Assembly: GCA_017433295.1 (NCBI GenBank)
Contig: JAFRHL010000040.1
Span: 33,023-97,022, forward strand
Direction: 5' to 3'
Source: Eubacterium sp.
Lineage (GTDB): Bacteria; Bacillota; Clostridia; Lachnospirales; Lachnospiraceae
Length of the DNA stretch: 64,000 nucleotides
Made by a program: the position numbers and the translations under genes. The notes below the pieces were generated by a model. The model ran no database searches, was not told where the DNA came from, and was given only the letters and a program-made list of their open reading frames with translations. This document shows positions 9,462 to 12,157 of this stretch, piece after piece; positions within the stretch are counted from its first letter, which is position 1, and each line of letters opens with the position of its first letter.

Positions 9462-10862
9462 ATGATTCCTGTGCCAAAATTATTCAGAAAAACAAAAACT
9501 GTTAAGGGGATCAACGCCTATATGGATACCACATTTCATGAGGTCCTGCATACGACTTTGAACCCTGACGGACCGGGTGCTATCCGCATTCATCTGATTC
9601 CTCCGAAGAAGGAGGAGAATGCGCTGAACCCCAGCATTGCGATCATTAACGGGGCAGATATCGTTCCGGTCAACTTTGTCTGGGCGGTGATGCTGGCAGA
9701 AATGATCCGCGAGACCAACCAGTATGACGGCAGGGAGATCGGTGAGGAGGAGATACAGTCTATTCTTGACCGGACAGCAGAAAATGTGAAACAGATCATT
9801 CCTGTCCTTTCAAGAAAACGCATTAAGGGTGACATCCGGACTATCTACCAGACCATAAAGCAGATCGCCTACCGGGAAGAGGTGACGACGGATGTCCATT
9901 ATATGAGTATCGGTGACTATGCTGAGTACATGAATGCACCCCACCGTATGGACCTGATGGTAAGTGCCATGACAAAGAAGGGGAAATGGCACTGTAATCA
10001 GAAATGTGTCCACTGTTACGCGGCGGACCAGGTCCTTGCCGAGGAGGAGGAGATCTCCACCGGGGAATGGAAGGCAATACTGGACAAATGCCGTGCTGTG
10101 GGTATTCCCCAGGTGACATTCACCGGCGGTGAACCGACCATGAGGGACGATCTTTTTGATCTCATAAAACATGCCAGGTGGTTTATCTCCCGCCTTAACA
10201 CAAATGGTATAAAGCTGACACAGGAGTACTGCCGCGGGCTTCGCCGGACAGAGCTTGACAGTGTTCAGATCACCTTTTATTCCTGGGACCGGCAAGTACA
10301 TAACCGGCTGGTGGGAGCAGACCAGTATGAGAATACGGTCAGGGGAATTGATAATGCTCTGGCGGAGGGACTTTCCGTCAGCATAAACACCCCCCTTTGC
10401 ACCTTGAATAAGGACTATGTAAAGACCCTTGAATTTCTTCATGAAAAGGGTGTGATCTATGTGACCTGCTCCGGCCTGATCACCACCGGAAATGCGGTCC
10501 GTGAAGCCTCAGAGCAGCTGCAGCTGACAAGTGGGGAGCTTGAAAGCATCCTGCGGGCGTCAGTGGCCTACTGTAATGAGAACGGTATGGAGCTCGCATT
10601 TACTTCCCCGGGATGGATCGGGCAGGAGGTCTTTGACGAACTGAATATTCCGTCACCTTCCTGCGGCGCTTGTTTATCCAATATGGCCATCACCCCGGGA
10701 GGAAATGTCGTTCCCTGTCAGAGCTGGCTTTCTGATGAACCTCTGGGAAACATGCTGAAAGCTGACTGGGAAACCATCTGGGAGTGCCCGGCCTGTGCCG
10801 ACAAGAGGAACTATTCATCCGAAATGACGGGTGAGTGCCCTTTGAGGAGGTATTGCCCATGA
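9462..10862 (+). CDS. Radical SAM/SPASM protein paired with a Cys-rich membrane protein
   Basis: This 466-residue protein has a radical SAM core with CX3CX2C cysteines at residues 178, 182 and 185 (HCNQKCVHCYAADQ) and VTFTGGEPTMRDDL nearby. An N-terminal region of about 160 residues precedes the core. The C-terminal SPASM-type domain shows CGACLSNMAITPGGNVVPCQSW and later CPAC and CPLRRYCP, cysteines that usually bind one or two auxiliary 4Fe-4S clusters. SPASM enzymes typically modify peptides or proteins. Its stop codon overlaps the start of the next gene (ATGA, 10859-10862), so the two are translationally coupled. I infer the neighbour's Cys-rich tail as substrate. The reaction is unknown. 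Confidence 0.85.
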   Translation: MIPVPKLFRKTKTVKGINAYMDTTFHEVLHTTLNPDGPGAIRIHLIPPKKEENALNPSIAIINGADIVPVNFVWAVMLAEMIRETNQYDGREIGEEEIQSILDRTAENVKQIIPVLSRKRIKGDIRTIYQTIKQIAYREEVTTDVHYMSIGDYAEYMNAPHRMDLMVSAMTKKGKWHCNQKCVHCYAADQVLAEEEEISTGEWKAILDKCRAVGIPQVTFTGGEPTMRDDLFDLIKHARWFISRLNTNGIKLTQEYCRGLRRTELDSVQITFYSWDRQVHNRLVGADQYENTVRGIDNALAEGLSVSINTPLCTLNKDYVKTLEFLHEKGVIYVTCSGLITTGNAVREASEQLQLTSGELESILRASVAYCNENGMELAFTSPGWIGQEVFDELNIPSPSCGACLSNMAITPGGNVVPCQSWLSDEPLGNMLKADWETIWECPACADKRNYSSEMTGECPLRRYCP

Positions 10863-12157
10863 TTCGTATAAAGAAAGAAACCAGCAGATTTATACTATTT
10901 GCGGCGGTCCTTCTGGTGATGTTCTTTCTTCCTGCCATCGGGGCCCGGGCCAAAGCCACCGATGAGATAGAGGACATGACGATCACCGTGGATGTCAGTG
11001 AGGATGCGTCCCTTAAGATGACATATCACATTGACTGGAAGGTCCTTGATGATTCCATCGGCAAGCTGGAATGGATCGACCTGGGTGTTCCCAACAGATA
11101 CCACGAAAACATCACTCCCTTAAGCAAGACGGTCGATCATATCAATGATAAGGGCAGCACCCTGGCCATATATCTTGACCGGGCTTATGGCGAGGGTGAG
11201 ACGGTGGGAATAGATTTTTCCATGACCCAGGACCATATGTATCAGATTGATAAATGGGTTAAGGGTGAGACAGTCTATACATTTACACCCGCCTGGTTTG
11301 ACTCCATGGAGGTCAAACAGCTGACCATCCGCTGGAATGAGGAAAATGCCGGGGCCTGGCAGCCGGACTGCCTGAATGAAGCCGGATACCTGACCTTTAA
11401 AACATCCCTTCCGGAAGGCGGAAAGTACACCATTTCTGTCACCTATCCCAATGATGCCTTTGCTTTCGCTGCGGACCGGCAGGCGGGCAGCGGGGACAGC
11501 AGTGGAAGTAATTCGGAAGGAGACAATGATTTAAGTGCCGGCGACTGGATACTCGGCATTCTGGGCCTGTTCATTTTCCTGGGGATCATTGCCTCTCCCT
11601 TTATCCTTATTTACAAGTTTATAAGATGGATTCTGGAGGGTATAGGTTTCGGATCAAAGCAGGAGACAAAGAAGAAGATCACCCGTACCAAGATCGAGTA
11701 CTATGAAAGCTGTCCCGGCTGCGGGGCCGCCAGAGAGGAAGGCAAGGACAGCTGTCCCTACTGCGGACGGTCCATGATCAAGAGTAAGGAAGTCGTAGAG
11801 GAAAACCAGATAGATAATCCGGAGAATTACACGAAAAAGGGTACCTACCGTTACGGGGATTCAGGGAATACCTATATCCGCGTGAATGTGATCAATGTGC
11901 CGGTCAGCCGGCCCCGGCCATCCTCCCGTTCTTCCCGCTCCGGCAGATCCTCTCACCATTCCTCCTGCGCATCATCCTGCGCATGTGTATCATCCTGCGC
12001 CTGCGCGTCCTCCTGTGCCTGCGCCTGTGCCTGTGCCTCGTCGGGCCGTGCGGGATGCTCGGTAAAGGATTTCTTTAAGGACAGCATCCATAAAAGACGC
12101 ATCAGGATCGAGAGCAGGGAGACAGAGAACCGTCCCCTGTCTCCTCCTGTCTCCTGA
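10859..12157 (+). CDS. Membrane protein with zinc ribbon and Cys-Ala-repeat tail
   Basis: I know no characterised member. ATG 10859 is chosen over an upstream in-frame start because GAGGAGG sits 10 bp before it; the product has 432 residues. Visible parts: a signal peptide or anchor (FILFAAVLLVMFFLPAIGARA), an extracellular beta-rich domain to about residue 200, a transmembrane helix near 229-260 (WILGILGLFIFLGIIASPF), a CPGCG..CPYCG zinc ribbon near 285-303, and a Ser/Arg/His-rich stretch followed by repeated SCAC units ending SCACACACASSGRAGCS (about 370-402). The last 13 residues (RETENRPLSPPVS) are encoded by a dispersed repeat. It overlaps the radical SAM gene, so its tail is the likely modification target. 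Confidence 0.8.
   Translation: MIRIKKETSRFILFAAVLLVMFFLPAIGARAKATDEIEDMTITVDVSEDASLKMTYHIDWKVLDDSIGKLEWIDLGVPNRYHENITPLSKTVDHINDKGSTLAIYLDRAYGEGETVGIDFSMTQDHMYQIDKWVKGETVYTFTPAWFDSMEVKQLTIRWNEENAGAWQPDCLNEAGYLTFKTSLPEGGKYTISVTYPNDAFAFAADRQAGSGDSSGSNSEGDNDLSAGDWILGILGLFIFLGIIASPFILIYKFIRWILEGIGFGSKQETKKKITRTKIEYYESCPGCGAAREEGKDSCPYCGRSMIKSKEVVEENQIDNPENYTKKGTYRYGDSGNTYIRVNVINVPVSRPRPSSRSSRSGRSSHHSSCASSCACVSSCACASSCACACACASSGRAGCSVKDFFKDSIHKRRIRIESRETENRPLSPPVS
12118..12144 (-). repeat. GACAGGGGACGG palindromic repeat, copy 2 (inside a coding end)
   Basis: This 27-mer is the exact reverse complement of the copy at 14537-14563. It lies in frame at the 3' end of the Cys-rich membrane protein gene, where it supplies the last residues and brings a second CCTGTCTCC before the TGA. 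Insertion of the repeat appears to have replaced or extended the original C-terminus, since the family-like GRAGCSVKDFF block ends well before it. Confidence 0.85.

Follow-up and report, generated by a model that had tools for sequence, protein, structure and literature searches.

A SPASM-type radical SAM enzyme encoded together with its likely substrate, a membrane protein bearing a conserved Cys-Ala tail

Introduction

Research on SPASM enzymes of the radical S-adenosylmethionine (SAM) class has mostly dealt with their synthesis of short peptide natural products, and the link made by one of them, the streptide synthase SuiB, is carbon-carbon. Other radical SAM enzymes, including the sulfatase-maturing enzymes and the activase of pyruvate formate-lyase, modify proteins, and the substrate of QhpD is a dehydrogenase subunit without a membrane anchor. 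The present analysis concerns two overlapping genes in a 64,000-nucleotide stretch of Eubacterium sp. (family Lachnospiraceae; assembly GCA_017433295.1, contig JAFRHL010000040.1, positions 33,023 to 97,022), referred to as the window, which encode a radical SAM/SPASM enzyme of 466 amino acids and a membrane protein of 432 amino acids with a C-terminal tail of Cys-Ala repeats.

The closest described enzymes are SuiB (PDB 5v1s and 5v1t) and the sporulation killing factor sactisynthase SkfB (PDB 6efn), both of which cross-link peptides and carry an N-terminal recognition domain. SkfB acts on a small secreted peptide rather than a 432-residue membrane protein, and SuiB, which has a full SPASM domain, cross-links two side chains within a peptide (PMC6231123; this and the other papers are cited from excerpts). 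Ranthipeptides such as SCIFF and freyrasin, the latter made by PapB, contain Cys thioethers introduced by SPASM enzymes, several of them in freyrasin (PMC8326336; PapB, PMC9413430), but the substrates are peptides and the acceptors differ; the NCBIfam PapB model is not among the families listed for the enzyme type of the window (type A) and stays under its cut-off for a second type treated below (type D). QhpD introduces thioethers into a protein and not a free peptide product, which provides a precedent for such links at the protein level (PMC8326336).

Repeat-bearing targets are likewise known. The Asp-Cys repeat and TVGG repeat peptides of SPASM enzymes also belong to small gene sets that join a radical SAM enzyme with a target containing repeats, although these targets are peptides rather than anchored proteins and their repeats have different letters; the TVGG repeats have been shown to be modified, a precedent for modification of repeated units (TvgB, PMC9062424). 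The Cys-Xaa-Xaa-Xaa repeat radical SAM target proteins (TIGR04117) also have a tandem Cys repeat and are presumed radical SAM targets, but the profile spans 98 positions and so describes a small protein without the ectodomain and anchor seen here; it does not match the type A protein of the window and matches the type D tail only weakly, at 13.0 and 13.8 bits against a cut-off of 50. Among membrane proteins, the DUF2207 family likewise combines a signal peptide, an ectodomain, a helix and a low-complexity C-terminal tail, but the tails are Gly-rich (in four of the five viewed) and not Cys-rich, and the tested member also has a DUF2207_C domain. A Streptococcus mutans DUF2207 protein has been investigated with regard to stress tolerance and the formation of biofilms (PMC10457818); the window protein itself falls under the cut-off of that family. 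No earlier description of the pair was found among the papers listed from the open-access literature, covered by titles and the beginnings of abstracts, with many subscription papers outside this coverage.

Pairing of the enzyme and the tail protein

The enzyme gene, a putative type A tail maturase recognized from Pfam scores and a structure model, occupies positions 9462 to 10862 of the forward strand, and the gene for the membrane protein, supported by its open reading frame (ORF), by relatives of the same architecture and by a model, occupies positions 10859 to 12157 of the same strand. As in the initial annotation, the two ORFs overlap by four bases (ATGA), the second starting with the ATG at 10859, and a GAGGAGG resembling a ribosome-binding site lies immediately 5′ of this start.

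The two genes are present or absent together across genomes. Among 61 related genomes the membrane protein occurs in 10, and enzyme matches above 470 bits occur in the same 10 only, the next match scoring 64.5 bits; the genes are adjacent on one contig in all 10, contig-end pieces included. Within the genus itself, both genes are present in 10 of 24 genomes and neither is present in the other 14. In a class-level set of 391 genomes, three separately searched profiles, one each for tail, enzyme and membrane protein, match the same 11 genomes, with enzyme scores of at least 637.9 bits in 10 and a contig-end piece of 198 bits in the eleventh, followed by a next match at 166 bits, and the enzyme gene touches the membrane-protein gene in all 11. 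Close homologues of the tail protein without the enzyme, which the initial annotation had named as the sign of a chance pairing, were sought and are absent from this set, the enzyme being present in 11 of 11 tail-bearing genomes and in none of the 380 without a tail. At the genome level the Fisher p for co-occurrence is 1.4e-21, and at the genus level it is 7.5e-15; both values are uncorrected for wider kinship. In genomes G254 and G293 the neighbouring membrane-protein gene runs off the contig and the only visible tail is on a different contig; in G436 the contig ends inside the tail, and in G376, also among the 11, an insertion breaks up the gene.

A DNA search with the codon pattern of the tail yielded at least 119 stretches, and 80 loci with 82 matches were examined. 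Three matches, in L075, L121 and L123, are not tails; the remaining 79 tails comprise 65 with an adjacent enzyme gene, 13 with 82 or fewer bases of upstream DNA and one (L095) without the enzyme. The members of 63 of the 65 adjacent pairs lie on the same strand, and the enzyme is upstream in 61. The two-gene unit occurs in many gut bacteria, and by record title the pair-bearing loci come from, among others, Lachnospiraceae, Oscillospiraceae, Gemmiger, Fournierella, Saccharofermentans, Acholeplasmatales, Anaeroplasma, Bacilli and Eggerthellaceae. Taken together, the coincidence of the same 11 class genomes and the enzyme beside 65 of 79 tails strongly support the pairing first proposed from the two genes of the window, and it is not coincidental. 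Carriage by phage was considered and rejected, the single pattern match in a viral contig having no adjoining tail protein or enzyme and being taken as chance.

Some loci depart from the common layout. In L059, L070 and L072 a single enzyme gene is common to two tail proteins, and one enzyme may serve several substrates. The tail-protein gene of L062 (genome G376, a one-contig genome; 6663-9592) is split by an insertion of roughly 2 kb with other ORFs, while the adjoining enzyme ORF is open. The tail ORF of L095 (3631-4437) has no signal peptide, being preceded by stop codons, and is possibly a decaying orphan. In L066 (5019-5979) and L099 (6760-7068) a short ORF separate from the remainder of the gene contains the tail, which reflects a frameshift that is either real or an assembly error.

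Conservation and selection of the tail

The Cys-Ala tail of the window protein, CASSCACVSSCACASSCACACACASSGRAGCSVKDF (residues 370-405; positions 11966 to 12073, forward strand), is defined by sequence, relatives and the structure model, and is predicted to be disordered, with a predicted local distance difference test (pLDDT) value mostly below 50. Comparison of relatives, over 19 rows of which L010 and L102 have identical counts and are apparently one sequence, gives 23 amino-acid against 323 synonymous changes in 640 codon comparisons of the tail and 2599 against 2170 in 7176 codon comparisons of the remainder of the protein. Strong purifying selection acts on the tail at the protein level, and these counts rule out a low-complexity artefact. 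Across 61 type A proteins Ala follows Cys in 417 of 433 cases, and the GRAGC end is kept together with the Lys three residues on, Lys403, which is invariant and lies outside the search pattern. The GRAGCS motif had been taken as the end of the protein, which in fact continues for 31 more residues.

Further tail types and enzyme phylogeny

The next 15 class enzymes, at 144.7 to 166.1 bits, all lie beside a different membrane protein with CHSA repeats and a CVSGGAR end (AK-ended in one), defining type D. A phylum-level set of 398 genomes adds to the picture with 68 enzyme matches at E 1e-34 or better. These include the enzyme of the window itself; 10 type B enzymes (331-361 bits), with tails like CACVSCACACVSCACACACAGGGGAGCA read in nine, one of them cut at the locus end, and masked in the tenth; four type C enzymes (204-225 bits), with CACACACACASSGGCT or CACACACACAGGGGCT at the C-terminus of the neighbour in all four; and three type D enzymes (141-150 bits), with the tail in all three. 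Starting from the enzymes of types B, C and D, an adjoining membrane protein is found in 32 of 32 cases, with a Cys-repeat tail read in 31 and masked in one. The remaining 50 phylum matches have shorter open frames (328-379 amino acids) and score 121-142 bits, a range that touches that of type D, so that the separation rests on length and clade and not on score. No Cys-repeat tail is present at any of the 12 background loci viewed, of these 50 and within at most about 1.5 kb per side, and the one enzyme tested among these 12 is NirJ2.

A tree of 83 enzymes comprises 51 tail enzymes (24 type A rows including three of a subtype A2, 10 of type B, four of type C and 13 of the 18 of type D) and 32 others, some of the latter on long branches; it results from a quick search with midpoint rooting and without bootstrap. 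The tail enzymes form one group, with a Shimodaira-Hasegawa-like approximate likelihood ratio test (SH-aLRT) value of 97. Types B, C, D and A2 each form one enzyme group (99-100), with A2 nested in A and A plus A2 forming one group (100). It is shown by these groupings that tail type matches enzyme group.

Subtype A2 (L061, L062 and L212) has the tail end GGGRVGCSERGYQVLHWL in place of GRAGCSxKDF, a GRVGC subtype with a matching enzyme subgroup; the tail is read in L061 and L062, and for L212 it lies on a different contig of its genome. Type D loci contain a constant third gene in 15 of 15 cases (L210, L211 and L215-L227), which encodes 324-360 amino acids, often starting near PGFPPPEKQ, and lies directly 3′ of the enzyme in L210 and L211.

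Gene content of the cassette

Neighbouring ORFs of at least 70 amino acids were clustered across 77 tail loci, six additional loci and the opening 25 kb of the window. Wide recurrence near tails is confined to the membrane protein (64 sources) and the enzyme (60 sources); the next clusters, each from 10 sources, are an ATP-binding cassette (ABC) ATPase and apparent antisense ORFs, both named by eye. At this length limit no protease, exporter, immunity gene or other third gene recurs with type A, and in place of a small precursor peptide with a leader the partner is the 432-residue membrane protein.

Domain organization of the enzyme

The enzyme scores above the Pfam cut-offs for Radical_SAM (PF04055, 69.6 bits) and SPASM (PF13186, 25.4 bits against 21.5), and its structure model has a mean pLDDT of 90.5. 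The CX3CX2C motif for the SAM-cleaving 4Fe-4S cluster (C178, C182 and C185; positions 9993 to 10016, forward strand), noted at first reading, is invariant in 47 of 47 homologues. The claim of at least seven C-terminal cysteines holds for the window protein, which has seven between residues 401 and 465, but only five (C401, C404, C419, C445 and C459) are conserved, each in at least 41 of 47 homologues. The C-terminal domain (positions 10650 to 10859, forward strand) is therefore read as a shortened, Twitch-like SPASM domain despite the Pfam match; the Cys cluster of its second half is absent from type A and present in the type B, C and D rows shown.

SkfB is the nearest solved enzyme by sequence, and SkfB and SuiB tie as nearest in structural comparison with the model, where further entries are anSME, PqqE and the epimerase EpeE. 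The alignment to SkfB, at 18 percent identity, starts at model residue 41 (chain residue 12) and those to SuiB at residue 22 or 31 (chain residue 1 or 5). These whole-enzyme alignments, reaching nearly the N-termini of SkfB and SuiB, are the basis on which the modelled N-terminal domain of four strands followed by three helices (residues 28-136; positions 9543 to 9869, forward strand) is tentatively taken to resemble a RiPP recognition element (RRE; RiPP, ribosomally synthesized and post-translationally modified peptide). The N-terminal domains of the type A and type D enzymes have no sequence similarity to each other, and the one type D N-terminal sequence searched matches no solved structure, with PqqD below threshold (13.3 against 23.4). 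By its fold the enzyme is shown to belong with the SPASM/Twitch radical SAM enzymes of the SkfB and SuiB kind. Neither protein falls into a listed curated family narrower than radical SAM/SPASM; in NCBIfam, none of the 25 families listed for the enzyme, of 55 matching, exceeds its cut-off, the best listed being NirJ2 (103.7 against 500). A defence system was rejected, as matches to viperin models are generic only, at 55 bits or less.

Architecture of the membrane protein

The membrane protein was described from the outset as signal-bearing, with a single internal helix followed by a zinc ribbon and an SCAC tail, and this order of elements is strongly supported and shared by relatives. On the forward strand, a signal peptide region (positions 10859 to 10948; hydrophobic segment 11-29, modelled helix 4-26, cleavage putative) precedes an all-beta ectodomain (residues 34-200; positions 10958 to 11458), a single transmembrane helix seen in hydrophobicity and in the model (residues 227-260 with a hydrophobic core at 231-249; positions 11537 to 11638) and a probably cytosolic domain with the zinc ribbon (residues 268-350, with C285, C288, C299 and C302; positions 11660 to 11908). 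The last is modelled mostly at pLDDT above 90 and is suggested by a Zn_Ribbon_1 match in homologue L056 (17.0 bits, under the cut-off of 25); the ribbon is missing from some relatives. Helix and charge indicate that the tail is probably cytosolic.

No Pfam or NCBIfam family matches the membrane protein above its cut-off, the sole hint being DUF2207 (PF09972, 15.8 bits against 24.4), and its profile finds nothing convincing among solved structures (best E 0.17). A profile comparison with five DUF2207 members (P 0.0012, probability 19 percent) is only suggestive of a DUF2207 ectodomain. The full-length membrane-protein profiles of types A and D match with a probability of 44 percent (E 2.4e-4), and their ectodomains compared alone give no significant match. 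Near its Cys-tail pair, L066 also encodes a DUF2207 protein (116-1966) with both domains above cut-off and Gly-rich C-terminal stretches.

Proposed mechanism and alternatives

The data are best explained by a stand-alone enzyme-substrate cassette, in which a dedicated maturase probably cross-links the cytosolic tail of its membrane partner, a judgement that shares part of its weight with the reading by other chemistry discussed below. The enzyme would be a cytosolic three-domain maturase, with an RRE-like N-terminal domain, a radical SAM barrel and a Twitch/SPASM domain, and its dedicated substrate would be the disordered C-terminal tail of a type I membrane protein translated along with it. 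The role of the tail as substrate, suggested at first reading, is very probable, given the dedicated pairing, the match between tail type and enzyme group, and the selection that acts on a disordered cytosolic tail encoded next to a RiPP-type maturase. The enzyme may recognize the conserved tail end GRAGC-S/T-x-K and link the Cys-Ala units within the tail at several points, most likely by thioethers from Cys to the carbons of nearby Ala or Ser, which would convert the flexible tail into a rigid knot that is low in thiols or binds metal. Thioethers are the likeliest chemistry, at an even chance or slightly less, because Cys is the sole residue repeated in all tail types and SkfB is the nearest enzyme by sequence. 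The product would remain on the membrane protein, as the lack of a dedicated, travelling protease or exporter in type A speaks for permanent modification of an anchored protein. As a guess, the finished protein could serve in sensing or in an envelope function via its ectodomain.

Several observations weigh against this cassette model. The tail-bearing genome of L095 has no enzyme match, in a search without positive control and with a truncated tail gene, and the constant third gene of type D limits the two-gene cassette to type A. Part of the tail's invariance is built in, since the search pattern that yielded the 79 tails and nearly all of the 61 rows itself specifies the last units. No known RRE matches the RRE-like domain in sequence, and where this domain is included, the structural alignments have a root-mean-square deviation of 5-6 Å. 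The side of the helix C-terminal to the membrane is the more positive one in only 47 of 61 proteins, and a CxC tail with nearby His also resembles a plain metal-binding tail.

The strongest alternative keeps the same pair but assigns the tail another chemistry, for example carbon-carbon cross-links, epimerization, desaturation or oxidation of Cys to formylglycine. The structural tie of SuiB, which joins two side chains, with SkfB, and the presence of anSME, PqqE and EpeE in the same comparison, lend it weight, and the auxiliary-cluster domain, short in type A and longer in the type B to D rows shown, gives no assurance of a single reaction for all types. The recurrence of Cys alone in every tail type, with Ala nearby, favours a Cys-centred reaction, and the best sequence match is to the thioether-forming SkfB, so that a non-thioether chemistry appears unlikely, if still a serious contender.

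That the tail is an unmodified binder of metal or iron-sulfur, with the enzyme inserting a metal centre or acting elsewhere, is rather improbable: the metallothionein-like CxC repeats beside a zinc ribbon and the Cys and His of the type D CHSA repeats would suit it, but the enzyme aligns with peptide-modifying enzymes across three domains, each tail type has its own enzyme group, as direct recognition would give, and to our knowledge metallothionein needs no radical enzyme. Release of the tail as the core of a natural product, modified, cut from its membrane scaffold and exported, recalls the repeat cores and RRE-bearing maturases typical of such systems and is very improbable in view of the non-recurrence of a protease, exporter or immunity gene with type A, a probably cytosolic tail on a type I anchor and the retention of the GRAGC end with its following Lys. 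Coincidental neighbours or a spurious ORF, prompted by the simple GC-rich repeat, are negligible beside joint presence and absence, purifying selection and further tail types next to the same enzyme group.

Significance

The initial annotation spoke of a new kind of substrate, which is too strong, as protein-modifying radical SAM enzymes such as QhpD are known; what appears to be new is a family of substrates formed by membrane-anchored Cys-Ala tails, their modification being likely from the evidence above. On a broader and more tentative view, less probable as a whole than the cassette model itself, an entire SPASM/Twitch clade of gut Firmicutes and some Eggerthellaceae may be devoted to cross-linking Cys-Ala tails on the cytosolic side of type I membrane proteins. 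The tail types, at least five in number (A, A2, B, C and D), would have co-evolved with their enzymes, and the finished tail would be a knot with many cross-links, perhaps metal-loaded, that relays signals or electrons from the ectodomain, the modification being permanent and part of no natural-product pathway. In the examined set the enzymes, which form a coherent group, are nearly always paired with anchored proteins, and within a type the tails of these proteins stay almost identical in sequence while the remainder diverges. If the tails are cross-linked, the substrate would be testable at once with two genes and one tail, five natural tail designs would be at hand for working out recognition and the cross-link pattern, and a modification of membrane proteins would be added to the biology of common gut bacteria.
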